Source: a virus
Virus record (IMG/VR): IMGVR_UViG_3300031772_000300
Location: 1-23,011 of that record
Length of the DNA stretch: 23,011 nucleotides
Reading direction: 5' to 3' (one strand)
The stretch's first letter is position 1, and every line of letters begins with the position of its first letter. Shown piece by piece: positions 5,697 through 15,135 of the stretch. The position numbers were made by a program, and so were the translations under genes. The notes under the pieces were generated by a model. It made no database searches, had not been told where the DNA came from, and saw only the letters and a list, made by a program, of their open reading frames with translations.

Positions 5697-5775
5697 AATA
5701 GGACAGATAATAATTACGGGGCTGATCGTGGTAGGGTCGTTTGTGATTGTGTACAAGATGGTTAAAAATTCATGA
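5686..5775 (+). CDS. 29-residue single-span membrane peptide
   Basis: ATG at 5686; product MAAEIGQIIITGLIVVGSFV plus a short basic tail (YKMVKNS). Nearly the whole chain is one transmembrane helix with a positively charged C-terminus. It starts inside the preceding gene and overlaps the next start (ATGA-type overlap, 5772-5775), which supports coupled translation. GAGG lies about nine bases upstream of the ATG. Such tiny membrane peptides in lysis cassettes may act as holins or antiholins, but nothing proves this here. Confidence 0.5.
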   Translation: MAAEIGQIIITGLIVVGSFVIVYKMVKNS

Positions 5776-6023
5776 AGTATGCGATATTTTTATTACCGCT
5801 GTTTTCAATTTTAATTATGTGTTGTAATGTCCATAAAATCGAACGTCCAGAAATGCCGCGTTGCTGCCAAGCACTCTATGATGTTCTTTATCTGAGTCAG
5901 AAAGTCCAGCAGCCGGTCAATGTGTCCAGCCTGATGGATTGTTGCCGACAGCAGAATAAAATTGAATATTGTCGGAAGCATGAAGACCCGTCAAGCTGCT
6001 TAAAACTGATGACAACTTTTTGA
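5772..6023 (+). CDS. Cysteine-rich exported protein, possible lipoprotein/outer spanin
   Basis: 83 residues. A signal-like N-terminus MKYAIFLLPLFSILIMCC ends at Cys17-Cys18. The -1 residue is Met rather than Gly, Ala or Ser, so a true lipobox is uncertain. The rest has two further Cys pairs (31-32 and 57-58) plus Cys67 and Cys76, a pattern suggesting disulfides after export. Its place after the peptidase and two membrane peptides fits an outer-membrane spanin lipoprotein, but the high cysteine content is unusual for one. It starts inside the previous stop codon. Confidence 0.6.
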   Translation: MKYAIFLLPLFSILIMCCNVHKIERPEMPRCCQALYDVLYLSQKVQQPVNVSSLMDCCRQQNKIEYCRKHEDPSSCLKLMTTF

Positions 6024-6541: not shown

Positions 6542-6757
6542 ATGAGCGATATAAAAAGTTTAATGAAAAGTCAACACAGGGGAATTATTGATGCGTGGCA
6601 GACAAAAAAAGGTTTTATAGTAATATGTAAAAATCCAAAAACTGCAAAAAAAATTGCGATAGATTTTTTAAGAGCAGGATTGAAAAACGCTAAAATAGAA
6701 GTACCGAATCAAGGAAATCCTTATGCTAAAGATTATGTAATATTCGCTGAAGTATAA
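6542..6757 (+). CDS. Small basic hypothetical protein, first early gene
   Basis: 71 residues beginning MSDIKSLMKSQHRGI, with AAGGAG nine bases upstream of the ATG. It is lysine-rich. Alternating beta and helix segments (GFIVICKNPKTAKKIAIDFL, then AKIEVPN and YVIFAEV) suggest a small alpha/beta fold. No known motif. It is first after the early promoter, a common position for proteins that act on the host soon after infection, but its function is unknown. Confidence 0.6.
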   Translation: MSDIKSLMKSQHRGIIDAWQTKKGFIVICKNPKTAKKIAIDFLRAGLKNAKIEVPNQGNPYAKDYVIFAEV

Positions 6758-6762
6758 AAACC

Positions 6763-6783
6763 GAGCCGGTGAAAATCCGGCTT
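6763..6783 (+). other. Short hairpin after the first early gene
   Basis: AGCCGG (6764-6769) pairs with CCGGCT (6777-6782), extended by one G-U pair, around the loop TGAAAAT. There is no T-run, so it looks like an RNA-stabilising or pausing hairpin rather than a terminator. Confidence 0.5.
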
Positions 6784-6835
6784 ACAAATAAAATACAAAT
6801 ATTTACAAATAAAATACAAATATTTACAAATAAAA
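6784..6835. repeat. Tandem 21-bp AT-rich repeats before the 6848 gene
   Basis: Two perfect copies of a 21-bp unit (ACAAATAAAAT followed by ACAAATATTT) at 6784-6804 and 6805-6825, then a partial third copy (ACAAATAAAA). Each unit is made of two related halves, so the ACAAATA motif recurs every 10-11 bp, close to one helical turn. The same sequence recurs at 7063-7090. Confidence 0.85.
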
Positions 6836-6847
6836 AGGAGAGCAGAA

Positions 6848-7066
6848 ATGAAAACATTAAAAGTAAAAATGAACAATAAAGTAAAATTTGAAAGAAGCAT
6901 GAAAGAATTGAAAGCATTGAAAGTTTGGGGCATCGGACTGGCTTATGATGGTGAAAAAAAATTTTGGACAGTATCATACGAGACAGAAGAGCAAGAACAA
7001 AAAATCAATAGAGTAGTTGGATGGTGCTGGGATAAAATAGAAATTACAGAAGATTTTTCAATATAA
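6848..7066 (+). CDS. Small hypothetical protein flanked by repeats
   Basis: 72 residues beginning MKTLKVKMNNKVKFERSMKE, with AAGGAG 8 bases upstream. The product has a basic N-terminus and a more acidic C-terminus (ETEEQEQKINRVVGWCW, ending EITEDFSI). No recognised domain. Its stop codon lies inside a copy of the AT-rich repeat that also precedes it, so the gene is bracketed by direct repeats and may have been gained or moved as a unit, or both flanks may share a regulator. Confidence 0.6.
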   Translation: MKTLKVKMNNKVKFERSMKELKALKVWGIGLAYDGEKKFWTVSYETEEQEQKINRVVGWCWDKIEITEDFSI

Positions 7067-7090
7067 AATACAAATATTTACAAATAAAAT
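7063..7090. repeat. Second copy of the AT-rich repeat
   Basis: It matches the tandem array at 6784-6835 (TAAAATACAAATATTT, then ACAAATAAAA). It spans the stop codon of the preceding gene and leads into the ribosome site of the next. Confidence 0.8.
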
Positions 7091-7102
7091 TTGAGGTATA
7101 AA

Positions 7103-7270
7103 ATGAAATTTAGATATGATGTAACAGACGGGAACGAATGGAGAACTGAAATATTAGATACCGATAATATCGCCAATGACTCTGGTGTTGAATTAGATAT
7201 TATAATGATCGAGCAATATTTAAGATTAGTATATGGATTAAATAATATTAAAAACATAGAAGAGGTATAA
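7103..7270 (+). CDS. Small acidic hypothetical protein
   Basis: 55 residues beginning MKFRYDVTDGNEWRTEILD and ending NIKNIEEV. The ATG has GAGGT eight bases upstream. The protein is acidic and has a likely C-terminal helix (VELDIIMIEQYLRLVYGL). No motif is recognised. It ends one base before the next start, whose 14-base initiation sequence is identical to its own (GAGGTATAAAATGA). Confidence 0.55.
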   Translation: MKFRYDVTDGNEWRTEILDTDNIANDSGVELDIIMIEQYLRLVYGLNNIKNIEEV

Positions 7271-7271
7271 A

Positions 7272-7454
7272 ATGACAAATACTCAAAAAGTACAGTTAAA
7301 CATTCTCAAAGAAATGGCAGACAAGCAGGTCATAACATCAATTGACTATTCGACGTATGAAGGATTAGTCGAGATCAGCAAGAAAGAAGATCGAAGCATA
7401 AGAAAAATAGTGAGGAGGTTAATCATTGAACACGTTAAAAATTATAGCTATTGA
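7272..7454 (+). CDS. Ribbon-helix-helix-like small protein, possible regulator
   Basis: 60 residues beginning MTNTQKVQLNILKEMADKQV. The C-terminal half (YEGLVEISKKEDRSIRKIVR and on) has the spacing of a CopG/Arc ribbon-helix-helix domain: a helix with E-x-x-KKEDRS, a turn, then the helix IRKIVRRLIIEHVKN. It could bind DNA as a dimer and act as a regulator of the early region, perhaps on the nearby repeats, but no target is proven. The ribosome site is GAGGT. Its 3' end overlaps the next gene by 29 bases. Confidence 0.6.
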   Translation: MTNTQKVQLNILKEMADKQVITSIDYSTYEGLVEISKKEDRSIRKIVRRLIIEHVKNYSY

Positions 7455-9191: not shown

Positions 9192-10577
9192 ATGATTATG
9201 GAATACGAAGAGTTTTTAAAATCAAAAAGTCAATCAGGAACTCAGACGGGTTTTGATCCGGTGTTCATGCCTGACTTTCTTTTTGATTTTCAGAAAGCCT
9301 TGATTGAATGGGCGGTTAAAAAAGGAAAGGCCGCGATATTTGCAGATTGCGGCCTCGGAAAGTCTCCGATGGAATTAGTCTGGGCGCAAAATATAGTTGA
9401 AAAGACAAATGGAAACGTATTGTTATTAACGCCTCTTGCGGTTGGAATTCAAATGGAGAGAGAATCAAAAAAATTTAATATTGATGCATCACGATCAAGA
9501 GATGGAAAAATACACGGTAAAATAACAATAACAAATTATGAACAATTGCAACATTTTAATCCTGATGATTTTTCAGGAATAATTTGTGACGAATCGTCTA
9601 TACTGAAAAATTTTGATGGTAAGACAAAAAATCTTATAAATATTTTTTCAAGAAAAATACAGTATAGACTTCTTGCAACAGCGACAGCCGCGCCGAATGA
9701 TTTTATTGAACTCGGGACATCCAGTGAGGCGTTAGGTTATCTTGGTTATATGGATATGCTCGGAAAGTTTTTTAAAAACGATCAAAATAACTGCGCTACA
9801 AATAGGCGCGGGAGGTTTACCGATGCGACGAAATGGAGACTCAAGGGTCATGCTCATGAATATTTCTGGCGATGGGTGACGAGCTGGTCGAGAGCAATGA
9901 GAAAACCGTCTGACATGGGTTTTGATGATACAAATTATAATCTTCCTGATTTAATTGAATATGATCATAATCTCAAAGTTGACGGGAGGTTTGTTGATGG
10001 AACTCTTCCCGGTTTTGTTCTTCCGGCAAATGGACTAAAAGAACAGAGAGATGAGAGGAGGGCCACGATAAAAGACAGATGCGAGAAGGCAGCAGAGATC
10101 GCAAATAATACAAAAGATTTTGCAGTTGTTTGGTGCAACTTAAATGATGAAGGTGATTTACTTGAAAAACTTATTCCTGATTCTATACAGGTTAGCGGAA
10201 AAGATGACGATGATAAAAAAGAAAATAAACTTTTTAACTTTTCATCTGGAAAAAACAGAGTTTTGATTACAAAGCCGAAGATCGGAGCATGGGGTTTGAA
10301 TTGGCAACATTGCAACCATGTTATATTTTTTCCATCTCATTCTTATGAACAATATTATCAAGCGATAAGAAGATGCTGGAGGTTTGGTCAAAAAAGAAAA
10401 GTAAAAGTTGATTTGATTTATTCTCAGGGTGATGAAAATATTATTTCAAATTTGAAAAGAAAACAGAATCAGGCAGAAGAGATGTTCGAAAACCTTGTAA
10501 AGGAAATGAATAATTCATTACATATCAACAATATTAAAATATTTGAAAATAAAATGGAGGTTCCGTCTTGGCTATAA
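9192..10577 (+). CDS. SNF2/superfamily 2 DNA helicase
   Basis: 461 residues. Helicase motifs appear in order: a Q-like FDFQ (31-34), Walker A DCGLGKS (52-58), a DEAD-type box CDESS (132-136), ATATAAPND (162-170), GLNWQHCNHVIFF (368-380) and motif VI QAIRRCWRFGQKRK (390-403), which is typical of SNF2-like phage helicases. An ATG six bases downstream is an alternative start. It is followed by a DNA methyltransferase gene whose TTG start lies in its last codons, a pairing seen in several phage genomes. Likely a DNA translocase or remodeller working with that methyltransferase or in replication. Confidence 0.85.
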   Translation: MIMEYEEFLKSKSQSGTQTGFDPVFMPDFLFDFQKALIEWAVKKGKAAIFADCGLGKSPMELVWAQNIVEKTNGNVLLLTPLAVGIQMERESKKFNIDASRSRDGKIHGKITITNYEQLQHFNPDDFSGIICDESSILKNFDGKTKNLINIFSRKIQYRLLATATAAPNDFIELGTSSEALGYLGYMDMLGKFFKNDQNNCATNRRGRFTDATKWRLKGHAHEYFWRWVTSWSRAMRKPSDMGFDDTNYNLPDLIEYDHNLKVDGRFVDGTLPGFVLPANGLKEQRDERRATIKDRCEKAAEIANNTKDFAVVWCNLNDEGDLLEKLIPDSIQVSGKDDDDKKENKLFNFSSGKNRVLITKPKIGAWGLNWQHCNHVIFFPSHSYEQYYQAIRRCWRFGQKRKVKVDLIYSQGDENIISNLKRKQNQAEEMFENLVKEMNNSLHINNIKIFENKMEVPSWL

Positions 10578-11542
10578 AAACACAAAAAATTACAAATCAA
10601 TACGCTATTTATAATGGCGATTGTATCGAGGTTATGGCGGATATGCCAGATGAATCAATAGATCTATCAGTATATTCTCCGCCGTTCGGAGGACTTTATC
10701 ATTATTCAAGTTCTGAGAGGGATTTATCAAATGCGGATAGTTATGAAGATTTTTTTAATCATTATGATTTTGTAGTAAAAGAACTATCAAGGATAACAAA
10801 GAATGGTAGATGCACCGCCGTTCATTGTATGGACGTGCCGTCTGGAAACTCTGGAGGTGATCATCTTGTTGATTTTCCCGGAGATATAATTCGATTGCAT
10901 GAAAAAAATAATTTTCATTATATCGCTCGTCATGCAATCTGGAAAGAGCCGTTAGCCGTTAGAAATAGAACAATGCAAAAAAATCTTGCACACAAAACAG
11001 TAGTTGATGATTCTATAAATTGTGGTGTCGCAAGCGCGGATTATCTTTTGATATTCAGAAAACATGGTGAAAATATTATTCAAGTTAATCATCCGACAGG
11101 TCTTGAGTATTATTCAGGAGAAAGAAAAATTCCAGATGAATTGATGTCATTCAAAAATTATTCAGGAAATCAAATTGAGAATAGATATTCTCATTGGATA
11201 TGGAGACAGTACGCTTCGAGTTTTTGGGATGATATCAGAATAGATCATGTTCTAAAATTTAAAGAAGCGCGAACAGATGAAGATGAAAAACACGTGCATC
11301 CATTGCAACTTGATGTAATAAATCGTGTTATTGTTTTAAGAACAAATCCGGGTGAAATTGTATTCACTCCGTTCATGGGTGTAGGTTCTGAAGTTTATGG
11401 ATCTGTTTACAATGGACGTAAAGGTATCGGTGTTGAGCTAAAAGAAAGTTATTATAATCAGGCAGTTAAAAATCTTGAAAATGTTAAACTTTATAAAGAT
11501 ATGGATGTACAGTTGACGTTGGAGGATTCAATTGCAATCTAA
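10568..11542 (+). CDS. DNA methyltransferase, SPPF type (N4-cytosine or N6-adenine)
   Basis: 324 residues with a TTG start and a good GGAGG site seven bases upstream. Motif IV is SPPF (37-40, in YSPPFGGLYHY) and motif I comes late: TPFMGVG (267-273), followed by GRKGIGVELKESYY. This order (catalytic motif first, SAM motif last) is the beta class. SPPF is common in N4-cytosine enzymes but also found in N6-adenine ones, so the base cannot be stated. The usual DPF(x)GSG is replaced by TPFMGVG, which may alter activity. No restriction nuclease gene is adjacent; self-protection of phage DNA is the likely use. Confidence 0.85.
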   Translation: MAIKTQKITNQYAIYNGDCIEVMADMPDESIDLSVYSPPFGGLYHYSSSERDLSNADSYEDFFNHYDFVVKELSRITKNGRCTAVHCMDVPSGNSGGDHLVDFPGDIIRLHEKNNFHYIARHAIWKEPLAVRNRTMQKNLAHKTVVDDSINCGVASADYLLIFRKHGENIIQVNHPTGLEYYSGERKIPDELMSFKNYSGNQIENRYSHWIWRQYASSFWDDIRIDHVLKFKEARTDEDEKHVHPLQLDVINRVIVLRTNPGEIVFTPFMGVGSEVYGSVYNGRKGIGVELKESYYNQAVKNLENVKLYKDMDVQLTLEDSIAI

Positions 11543-12584: not shown

Positions 12585-12770
12585 ATGGCAAAATGGCAAC
12601 TTGTAACATCAACAACATGGATGGGAACAGAACAATACCATGATATCGATGGAGACTATGAGACAGAGGAAGAAGCTCTTGAATCGTTCGGAGGAAATGA
12701 TGAAGCATATTTGCAAGCGCTGGAAGATCATTGCCCTGAATATCATATTAAAAAAGTTGATGGAGAATGA
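12585..12770 (+). CDS. Small acidic hypothetical protein
   Basis: 61 residues beginning MAKWQLVTSTTWMGTEQYHD, with AGGAGG upstream. Strongly acidic (DIDGDYETEEEALESFGG). The pattern of an N-terminal strand followed by an acidic helical centre is common among small phage proteins that mimic DNA or bind host proteins, but this is only a general resemblance. ATGA overlap with the next gene. Confidence 0.55.
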   Translation: MAKWQLVTSTTWMGTEQYHDIDGDYETEEEALESFGGNDEAYLQALEDHCPEYHIKKVDGE

Positions 12771-13024
12771 AGATGAGTAACGAGCCTGTAGTAATTTATT
12801 TACATGACCGTGATGATTTTTTCGGTGAAAATGCGCACAGAGATAATACAGTGCAATGGTCGGAAACATCTGTTGCTGATGATGATTATCAGTACATCAG
12901 GAGCACGACAGGACTGTTTAATTTCTTTATGTGGTTCAGAGCGAACGGAGAAAAGTATGTCAATCTGCCGGTCGAAAAAATGATTGAAACGTACTTAAAA
13001 AGTATTGACAAAAACGAAAGCTAA
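12767..13024 (+). CDS. Hypothetical protein before the structured RNA
   Basis: 85 residues beginning MKMSNEPVVIYLHDRDDFFG, overlapping the previous stop (ATGA), with GGAG upstream. Acidic N-terminal half (SETSVADDDYQYIRS) and an aromatic central segment (LFNFFMWFRANGEKYVN). No recognised motif. Its 3' end contains the -35 box of the promoter at 13005-13033, so expression of gene and RNA may interact. Confidence 0.55.
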   Translation: MKMSNEPVVIYLHDRDDFFGENAHRDNTVQWSETSVADDDYQYIRSTTGLFNFFMWFRANGEKYVNLPVEKMIETYLKSIDKNES

Positions 13025-13033
13025 TTATACAAT
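13005..13033 (+). promoter_or_regulatory. Near-consensus sigma70 promoter of the structured RNA
   Basis: -35 TTGACA (13005-13010, six of six) and -10 TACAAT (13028-13033, five of six) with the optimal 17-base spacer. Expected start at about 13040-13041, exactly at the base of the first RNA hairpin. Confidence 0.8.
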
Positions 13034-13040
13034 TTAATTA

Positions 13041-13146
13041 GTTGATGTAACTGGACCGACATCAAAAAAGAATGAGACCATTTTGATGAGCGCCGCGTCC
13101 AGCCTTCAGGTAAAACTGAAGGGGCGTTCTTCAAAGTGGTTTTTTT
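13041..13146 (+). ncRNA. Candidate structured small RNA or leader with pseudoknot and terminator
   Basis: About 106 nt from the predicted start to the end of a T-run. P1: TTGATGT (13042-13048) pairs with ACATCAA (13059-13065) around a ten-base loop. P2: CCATTTTGA (13078-13086) with TCAAAGTGG (13131-13139). P3: GAGCGCC (13088-13094) with GGCGTTC (13123-13129). P4: CCTTCAG (13103-13109) with CTGAAGG (13116-13122). The P1 loop holds CTGGAC (13051-13056), complementary to GTCCAG (13097-13102) in the eight-base bulge between P3 and P4, so a six-pair pseudoknot is possible. It contains no ORF with a ribosome site and matches no RNA family I recognise. It could be a free sRNA or a regulatory leader of the initiator gene. 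Confidence 0.7.
13078..13146 (+). terminator. Extended intrinsic terminator ending the structured RNA
   Basis: Helices P2-P4 stack into 23 base pairs interrupted by one T-T mismatch and one 8-base bulge, directly followed by TTTTTTT (13140-13146). Read-through would be needed to express the initiator gene from the upstream promoter. Confidence 0.75.
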
Positions 13147-13158
13147 ATGGAGAAAATT

Positions 13159-13878
13159 ATGAACGATAACAAAATAGAATTATCAGGAATATTTTCAAAC
13201 GGTTATGGAATTATACCGAAAAAACTTATGCAGAATAAAGAATTGAATGTTTATGATAAATGTATTCTTGCTTATATGCTGAGTTTTACCGGAGGAGGGA
13301 ATGTTTGTTTTCCTTCATATAAAAAAATAGCTGAAGATTTACAGATCAGCGAACCAACCATTGCAAAGTCATTGAAGAAACTATCAGGTAATGGCTTTAT
13401 AAAAATTGAATTATTATACCCAGAGGATAGGTTAAAACATAATAATAAATACATTCTATCTTTCTTAAATGAAGCCACGATACTAAACGACGTTAAGTCT
13501 CACGCTACATCTGATGAAGTCTCGCGCTTCGCTAAACTTAGTAGTAATAATAACATAAATAATAATAACATTCTTAATAATAAAAATAGTGATTTATATC
13601 AGGAAATAACAAAAATCATCTATAATGAATACCTACTATTAACAAAAGAGAAATTGATTATTGATGCAAAAGAAGGTAAAGCGATAAAAGAAATAATCAA
13701 GAAATGCACGACAATTGATAAAGACTTTCCGATTACTATCCTTAAATATAAAATATCAATATTGACTACCTTAATAAAAAATGATACAAGAAACTATTAT
13801 CATATGACTCCATCTTGTATAAATTCAAACTGGCAAAGAATAACACACGTAAAAAAACCACATGATTATGAGGATTAA
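13159..13878 (+). CDS. Replication initiator-like protein with winged HTH
   Basis: 239 residues. The ATG at 13159 has GGAG six bases upstream and is preferred to an in-frame ATG at 13147, which directly abuts the terminator T-run. A winged helix-turn-helix (CFPSYKKIAEDLQISEPTIA and on, about 50-80) matches the N-terminal domain of phage O-like and DnaD-like replication proteins. An Asn-rich linker (about 125-142) leads to a C-terminal helical domain. Its stop directly abuts the DnaB-like helicase start, as for initiator-helicase pairs. It probably binds the origin and loads that helicase. Possible origin repeats lie within the gene itself. Confidence 0.75.
   Translation: MNDNKIELSGIFSNGYGIIPKKLMQNKELNVYDKCILAYMLSFTGGGNVCFPSYKKIAEDLQISEPTIAKSLKKLSGNGFIKIELLYPEDRLKHNNKYILSFLNEATILNDVKSHATSDEVSRFAKLSSNNNINNNNILNNKNSDLYQEITKIIYNEYLLLTKEKLIIDAKEGKAIKEIIKKCTTIDKDFPITILKYKISILTTLIKNDTRNYYHMTPSCINSNWQRITHVKKPHDYED
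13472..13590. other. Possible replication origin inside the initiator gene
   Basis: AAGTCTCACGCTAC (13495-13508) and AAGTCTCGCGCTTC (13517-13530) are repeats matching at 12 of 14 bases, 22 bp apart; a weak third (AAGCCACGATAC) starts at 13472. Directly downstream is a highly AT-rich stretch (13541-13590, with AATAATAACAT twice) that encodes the Asn-rich linker. Iterons next to an AT-rich melting region inside an initiator gene parallel the lambda O/ori arrangement. Confidence 0.4.
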
Positions 13879-15135
13879 ATGAAATACTGTGAACAAACCG
13901 AGCGAGAGATATTAAATTCCGCTATCATAAAACAAGAAAGCCTGTTTCTGCTGATGGAGCATGACCGGGACTTATTCTACTTTGAAGAAAACCGGGCGAT
14001 ATTTGACACGCTCAAGGAATTATTCGAGATCGGTTCTCAGCCTGACATTAGTATAATCGGATTGAAGTTGAAAGAGGCAGGAAAATTTGAAGAGATGGAA
14101 AATCATTTACTTTTAATAATGAAGTCATACACTCCATACAGCATTGATACACATATCGAAACACTTGAACGTTATTACAACGAACGAAAACTATTGATGC
14201 TGAGTAAAGACATTTACAACGCTGTAAAATCCGGAGACATGACATATTATCAACTTGCTAACCAGTTTGCTGAATTTAATAATAATATTAACCTGACAAA
14301 GCACACTGAGTTTTGCACCATTGACGACATCGCGAAGTATAACCTTGATGAACTGTTCAAGGCAAGTAATTTTATTAGGACTGGGCTACGGGCCCTTGAT
14401 GATAAGATAATCGGACTTTTTAACGGTCAACTTATAGTCTTGGCCGGTCGTCCTAAAATGGGAAAGTCAACTTTTGCAATCCAGTTATTGAAGAACATCA
14501 AAGAGCATACTTTATTTTTCTCAATGGAAATGAAGAGACAAGAGATTTACGCGAAAATACTTTCCGGATTCTGCGATGTCGAGAGCTGGAAAATTGAATT
14601 GAATAAATTGAATGTTGAAGAGTTTGACAAGGTTGCCAGATGTCACCTTAGTATTAAGGACAAATTAAATTGCACGGTATTTGATACTTCATTCAATATT
14701 TCAAAACTGAAAGCAACGATTAAGAAGTTTCATAACATGAAAAAGCCAGTCGCGATATTTGTAGACTATTTACAACTGATAACCGGAGGAGCGACTGAAA
14801 GCCAGGTATTGAGGATTGCGTCTATTACCCGGGACTTGAAACTGTTGGCGATGGAGCTTAATATTCCGATTGTATTATTGAGCCAGTTATCAAGAGAAAG
14901 CGAAAAGCAGAAAAGACGCCCTATCATGTCAGATCTGAGGGACTCTGGAAGTATAGAGCAAGACGCGGACATAATAATTTTCGTACATGAGGAGGACGGG
15001 AAAACTGAAATAATAATAGGTGCGAATCGTAAAGGTAAAAGCGGAATCGTTAAGGGAATAAAATTTGTGAAAGAGTATTCACGGTTTGAAGATGAAGAAG
15101 GCACATTCGATAATCCGGAATATTTTCATGAATAA
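13879..15135 (+). CDS. dnaB: DnaB-type replicative helicase
   Basis: 418 residues. An N-terminal helical domain (about 1-130; EREILNSAIIKQESLF resembles DnaB_N) is followed by a RecA-fold ATPase: Walker A GRPKMGKS (190-197), FFSMEM (213-218), Walker B VAIFVDYLQL (291-300), LLSQLSRESEKQKRRP (333-348) and SDLRDSGSIEQDADIIIFVH (351-370). The order and sequences are those of DnaB hexameric helicases, which unwind the fork ahead of the polymerase. It is somewhat shorter than bacterial DnaB. The ATG follows the initiator stop with no gap. It ends 20 bases before the SSB-like gene. Confidence 0.92.
   Translation: MKYCEQTEREILNSAIIKQESLFLLMEHDRDLFYFEENRAIFDTLKELFEIGSQPDISIIGLKLKEAGKFEEMENHLLLIMKSYTPYSIDTHIETLERYYNERKLLMLSKDIYNAVKSGDMTYYQLANQFAEFNNNINLTKHTEFCTIDDIAKYNLDELFKASNFIRTGLRALDDKIIGLFNGQLIVLAGRPKMGKSTFAIQLLKNIKEHTLFFSMEMKRQEIYAKILSGFCDVESWKIELNKLNVEEFDKVARCHLSIKDKLNCTVFDTSFNISKLKATIKKFHNMKKPVAIFVDYLQLITGGATESQVLRIASITRDLKLLAMELNIPIVLLSQLSRESEKQKRRPIMSDLRDSGSIEQDADIIIFVHEEDGKTEIIIGANRKGKSGIVKGIKFVKEYSRFEDEEGTFDNPEYFHE

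Follow-up and report, generated by a model that had tools for sequence, protein, structure and literature searches.

A pseudoknotted RNA, predicted to fold as a transcription terminator, directly precedes a phage replication initiator gene

Directly before the replication initiator gene in 23,011 nt of viral DNA (IMG/VR record IMGVR_UViG_3300031772_000300, positions 1 to 23,011; this whole stretch is referred to as the window), we found an RNA element of roughly 105 bases that is knotted and, in the modeled structure, folds as a predicted transcription stop signal. Sequence comparison indicates that the element is real, since two relatives keep the fold with almost entirely different letters, and we regard the structure as almost certainly a genuine RNA fold. 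On balance, its sequence and surroundings suggest an attenuator: a structured leader of the phage's replication operon that probably limits the amount of replication protein made.

RESULTS

A stable fold with a loop-bulge pseudoknot

The predicted 106-nt transcript (13041-13146) has a minimum free energy (MFE) of -43.3 kcal/mol, compared with -23.3 +/- 3.4 kcal/mol for shuffled sequences (z = -5.84), and none of the 200 shuffles was as stable. As listed in Table 1, the MFE fold contains helices P1 to P4. The two strands of the pseudoknot, one in the P1 loop and the other in the bulge, stay unpaired in it. The initial annotation had placed all four helices correctly, with P2 now reaching beyond the 9-bp core given there, and the exact complementarity between loop and bulge and the closing U-run that it described were likewise found. 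The linker between P1 and P2 measures ~9 nt and ~11 nt, respectively, in the two relatives described below (L022 and L002).

Table 1. Features of the RNA element and its surroundings in the window
Feature	Position	Strand	Basis
Predicted sigma70-type promoter, TTGACA-17-TACAAT (boxes 13005-13010 and 13028-13033)	13005-13033	+	11/12 matches
P1 hairpin, 10-nt loop	13042-13048/13059-13065	+	MFE fold and double changes in relatives
Pseudoknot 5' strand CUGGAC, in P1 loop	13051-13056	+	exact complement of 13097-13102
P1-P2 linker, 8-11 nt depending on P2 fraying	13066-13073	+	fold
P2	13074-13086/13131-13143	+	fold; 9-bp core extended into U-run
P3	13088-13094/13123-13129	+	fold
P2 plus P3, lower arm of terminator hairpin, 18 bp from bulge to U-run	13074-13143	+	fold and relatives
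5' bulge (8 nt) between P3 and P4, with pseudoknot 3' strand GUCCAG (13097-13102)	13095-13102	+	fold
P4 hairpin (whole 13103-13122)	13103-13109/13116-13122	+	fold
U-run (seven T) completing the predicted intrinsic terminator	13140-13146	+	sequence
Initiator ribosome-binding site GGAG	13149-13152	+	sequence; same position relative to ATG in L022
Replication initiator, 239 aa, HTH_36/DnaD N-terminal-like	13159-13878	+	profile matches (HTH_36, 2.6e-12; DnaD_N, 8.7e-7); start by alignment
DnaB-like replicative helicase	13879-15135	+	phrog_19, 1.2e-82

Two relatives keep the fold and exchange the sequence

Both relatives were found through the initiator protein, independently of the RNA: L022, a contig of an Eubacteriales MAG, has an initiator segment 84% identical to that of the window, and L002, an IMG/VR contig, an initiator 61% identical to it. 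In each, the initiator gene is directly preceded by the same parts: hairpin P1, then a long terminator hairpin bulged on its 5' side, then a U-run (kept as GGCTTTTTTAT). The loop/bulge strands are CUGGAC/GUCCAG in the window, CUUGGAC/GUCCAAG in L022 and AUUCCCC/GGGGAAU in L002; in L022 and L002, the bulge pairs along its entire length to the P1 loop. By our own calculation, a 7-bp match of this kind between a 7-nt bulge and a loop of 8 or 9 nt has a chance of ~1-2 in 10,000 per relative. The lower stem, from the bulge to the U-run, is exactly 18 bp long in all three sequences, free of insertions and deletions.

The exchange of letters preserved pairing. Double changes among the three sequences were found at 22 of the 32 comparable pairs (5 in P1, 18 in P2/P3, 4 in P4 and 5 in the pseudoknot) and a one-sided change at a single pair, counts that derive from structural landmarks in few sequences and may lean towards the structure; landmarks were used because MAFFT misaligned L002. 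Specifically, all 5 loop-proximal P1 pairs, 11 of the 18 P2/P3 pairs and 3 of the 4 compared P4 pairs changed on both sides, and standard pairing was present in 95 of the 96 cells (32 pairs in three sequences). The window and L022 alone differ at 12 pairs, 10 of them by double change. Five cells hold G-U wobbles and none holds A-C, a pattern indicating that selection acts on a working RNA of the (+) strand. A covariance model (R1) built from the window and L022 only, without pseudoknot information, recovers L002 at 27.1 bits with every helix aligned, and its alignment gives the same register as the landmark-based counts. Across these three members, there is no conserved core in the loops, linker or bulge.

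A blind scan ranks the same three elements first

A blind descriptor was run on both strands of phage and host sequences (827 kb, non-redundant). It asked for a T-run, a long terminator hairpin whose 5' bulge spans 5 nt or more, an upstream hairpin and a loop complementary to the bulge. From 6,839 T-runs, 150 structures with the right parts emerged, and the best three pseudoknot scores (18, 18 and 16) belonged to the elements of the window, L022 and L002. The fourth-best score was 13, made up of A-U pairs and wobbles only, and of 1,000 shuffles of the three element regions, 1-3 passed a cut-off set far lower, at 8. Above background scores, the element occurs once per record in three records, always before the initiator. 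Since the relatives keep the architecture and the blind scan ranks the same three first, chance is excluded.

Searches for further members left the number at three. DNA patterns and blastn, run against viral contigs and phages, returned no close copies of the RNA, and the search for relatives via the DnaB protein gave nothing useful. R1 with strict filters, applied to 391 genomes of the class of G001, matched G001 alone; two weak model matches in host genomes (G035 and G049) were inspected and rejected, the loop-bulge complement being absent. The element had been described as belonging to no known family, and a cmscan comparison of the window with all 4227 families of Rfam 15 agreed, with nothing at gathering score and, at E <= 10, only far-sub-threshold matches to unrelated families. 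A literature search, with most subscription journals outside its scope, found no description of such an RNA before a phage initiator.

Between the RNA and the phage's own transcripts, complementary stretches reach 10-12 nt, about the level of chance, and they differ between members. The hexamers GTCCAG and CTGGAC occur 10 times on the two strands of the window (3.3 expected), and a small ORF contains the bulge hexamer GTCCAG three times in 85 nt (5845-5929). This cluster was considered as a target and rejected, as the corresponding motifs of L022 and L002 show no comparable clustering in the stretches searched. Neither hexamer occurs in the initiator and DnaB genes, so a second site like seqC of phage P4 is missing there.

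Predicted promoter and downstream genes

The promoter proposed in the initial annotation is present as described and is a prediction from sequence; it overlaps the end of an upstream ORF (12767-13024). Promoter-like sites of at least 9/12 matches are no commoner in this region of the window than in shuffles, so the prediction depends on its 11/12 quality and its position. L022, whose sequence starts at the -35 box, has a counterpart (TTGACA-16-TAGATT) with P1 at the same distance as in the window. Right before the element of L002, no promoter-like site was found; the nearest lies 120 nt upstream, separated from the element by a separate plain terminator. In L002, a TTGACA-17-TATGTT promoter lies at 5698-5810 together with a hairpin and a plain terminator, resulting in two serial terminators before the initiator, and an 18-codon ORF lies between the pseudoknotted element and the initiator gene of this contig. 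On the minus strand over the leader, promoter-like sites reach 9-10/12 only, a chance level, and the best one is directed away from the RNA. GTTACA-16-TATAAT (minus strand, 13051-13024) diverges from the RNA and overlaps P1 and the forward -10 box.

The position directly before the initiator gene also stood up, with the start moved: it is most likely the second ATG at 13159, as aligned with L022, L002 and the further relative L019, and the GGAG listed in Table 1 is its ribosome site. In the window and L022, the U-run closes the hairpin immediately before this site. A four-codon ATG...TGA frame with similar codons lies in the linker and P2 of the window (13072-13089) and of L022 (62-79); we rejected it as a leader peptide, since it lacks a ribosome site and L002 has no such frame.

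Genomic setting and distribution

Regarding homologues that keep the proteins and break the helices, a case raised in the initial annotation, L022 and L002 keep the helices and the complementarity, and L019 has no element at all. The L019 initiator, 63% identical and thus as close as that of L002, directly follows another gene, with the element found neither directly upstream nor anywhere in its 36 kb; an initiator of this family can therefore do without the element.

Plain terminators precede initiator genes more widely. At -10 kcal/mol, they were counted before 16 of 36 initiators vs 3 of 163 control ORFs, an uncleaned count with some false positives in coding sequence and several related loci; at -13 kcal/mol, the count was 11 of 36 vs 3 control ORFs. 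Plain intrinsic terminators lie directly before distant initiator homologues at four loci (L025, L034, L043 and L064), the first of which adjoins an apparent tmRNA gene, as if integrated there. Since plain ones precede several distant relatives, a terminator before the initiator gene is a recurring arrangement, of which the pseudoknotted form looks like an elaboration.

Inside the initiator gene of the window (13480-13590), TTAACGACGTTAAG-like inverted repeats are followed by TAATAATAACA repeats, and similar repeats occur in L022 (470-580), L002 (6310-6440) and L019 (6318-6430). Judging by sequence, these are probably an in-gene replication origin and its unwinding element. The putative origin signals lie ~300-450 bp downstream of the RNA element, and because they are inside the initiator gene, leader transcription would also cross the origin. 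There is no evidence of lysogeny, since the three viral records searched, all of which may be incomplete, contain no tyrosine or serine integrase. Elsewhere in the window (9192-11542), adjacent helicase-like (phrog_62/16) and DNA methyltransferase (phrog_67) genes both match parts of the longer phrog_16, as if a larger fused protein had been split, and L002 carries PAPS-reductase-like and Mom-like DNA-modification genes (6708-7421 and 9749-10495) downstream of the initiator, in the place taken by DnaB in the window.

DISCUSSION

A structured leader as the preferred reading

Attenuation is the simplest reading of the element because the terminator sits between the promoter and the initiator ribosome site. 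Among the three functions initially offered for the RNA, a leader controlling read-through fits best: the RNA turned up at no other place, the hairpin it forms serves as the terminator and the initiator's ribosome site comes directly after it. The three members have hardly any unpaired nucleotide in common, which makes a riboswitch with a conserved ligand pocket unlikely, and a classical copy-number antisense RNA is without support because no good opposing promoter lies over the leader.

Transcription would start at the predicted promoter, near the first base of P1, and P1 would fold first. Bases 13097-13102 would pair with six bases of the P1 loop as they emerge, so the pseudoknot could form once position 13102 leaves the polymerase, before the 3' arm of the terminator exists. 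P4 would then close, followed by P3 and P2, and the long stem with its U-run would stop most transcripts before the ribosome site, releasing a knotted RNA of ~105 nt; the initiator and DnaB would be expressed from read-through transcripts only. Three points of this scheme are inferred: termination in vivo, a limit on initiator synthesis imposed by read-through, and tuning by the pseudoknot.

The strand that pairs with the P1 loop sits in the bulge, outside the terminator stem, and thus does not obviously compete with the terminator. The pseudoknot would lay P1 along the 18-bp lower stem, and a geometric estimate (linker of 8-11 nt, P1 of 5-13 bp, 18-bp stem of ~50 A) allows the knot and the full stem to coexist. 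It probably sets the speed or completeness of terminator closure and, through this, would set the read-through fraction. Folding of successive prefixes showed that, in the window and L022, the loop and bulge strands can also pair as the outermost helix of an antiterminator-like nested hairpin, which sequesters the terminator's 5' arm until its 3' partner emerges; the nested hairpin is absent from the prefix folds of L002. According to these models, the conserved loop-bulge contact may slow or steer closure of the terminator. More tentatively, the three elements may represent a new family of RNAs, intrinsic terminators gated by a pseudoknot: the 5' hairpin loop would dock into the terminator's own bulge during transcription and set the initiator read-through fraction, with loop and bulge changing together, the sequence free and the 18-bp geometry fixed.

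Alternative readings

A free-standing, trans-acting sRNA, placed before the initiator by chance or linkage, would likewise have its own promoter and terminator, with the knot as protection and the P4 loop or linker presented to a target RNA or protein. The promoter at P1 in the window and L022 suits this reading, and an RNA with such a stable fold would accumulate if termination were efficient. However, the element always lies directly before the initiator and nowhere else in the DNA scanned, its loop and linker sequences are not conserved, its complementarity to the phage's own transcripts is about that of chance and varies by member, and L002 has no promoter of its own; we consider a trans-acting sRNA unlikely, although a serious candidate. 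A feedback RNA like phage P4 CI or IsrK of Gifsy-1 seems quite unlikely. In that case, the released RNA would pair in trans, loop with bulge, on nascent leaders, and more termination or changed translation would lower replication-gene expression as phage copies rise, the rapid paired change of loop and bulge then reflecting type specificity. The two strands are indeed mutually complementary and co-vary in every member, and the same control logic is documented for P4 and IsrK (PMC4825925), but intramolecular pairing should beat intermolecular pairing, no further copy of the pairing sequence is present in the replication genes, unlike P4 seqC, and the viral records give no sign of lysogeny.

The plain terminators before the initiator in several distant relatives raise the improbable reading that the element is an ordinary insulating terminator against upstream-gene transcription, with the pseudoknot as a stabilizing ornament. 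In the window and L022, however, the terminator comes right after a promoter-like site, and an insulator needs neither a 6-7 bp pseudoknot nor P1, nor an 18-bp stem kept through near-complete sequence turnover. An origin or single-strand origin hairpin acting as DNA would explain why the element adjoins the initiator gene; it is very improbable in light of the (+) strand wobbles, all G-U and none A-C, the U-run on one side only and the likely origin signals within the initiator gene downstream. In the pistol ribozyme, a six-bp pseudoknot joins the P1 hairpin loop to an internal loop between two further stems. The element shares this topology, but all three members lack 3'-side nucleotides between P4 and P3, where the pistol cleavage site sits, their stems are far longer and end in a terminator, and there are no conserved core nucleotides and no Rfam match at E <= 10, so a pistol-like self-cleaving RNA is barely credible.

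Relation to known systems

Small phage RNAs beside the replication initiator or origin include lambda oop and the origin transcripts of phage c2; oop runs opposite to the replication gene, and the c2 RNA lies at the origin itself. Closer in layout are IsrK and the structurally related P4-like SeqA leader, which, like the element (by prediction), are short phage RNAs with their own promoter and intrinsic terminator. In Gifsy-1, the fraction of IsrK transcripts that passes the terminator continues into downstream phage genes and yields their mRNA, and in P4, premature termination holds down the replication genes (PMC4825925). The element differs from both in its fold, with a loop-bulge pseudoknot in the terminator and no Rfam match at the same threshold, in having no second pairing copy downstream, and in that no ORF-translation switch was seen. 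Plasmid attenuators set the initiator level by premature termination in the leader, as in pIP501 (PMC4981023). Those of pIP501 repR (RNAII/RNAIII) and pT181 repC resemble the element in having an intrinsic terminator in the initiator leader (predicted here, also in L022 and L002); they need an antisense RNA from the opposite strand, whereas our leader has no good opposing promoter and its pseudoknot is intramolecular. An antiterminator pairing of the kind expected of such attenuators, between an upstream segment and the terminator's 5' arm, shows in the prefix folds of the window and L022 and is absent in L002. The features tested do not place the element in either group, and both are precedents for its layout only. 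What is new is the fold and its extreme freedom of sequence; a leader or attenuator of a replication initiator is of a known kind.

Implications

To our knowledge, few regulatory RNAs are known for replication control in tailed phages of anaerobic Firmicutes. The element is small and clearly bounded, and a fold so free of sequence would largely escape searches by sequence or by ordinary covariance models. Should the pseudoknot tune termination, the strength of a terminator would be set here by a tertiary contact, with the fold conserved and the sequence almost free.
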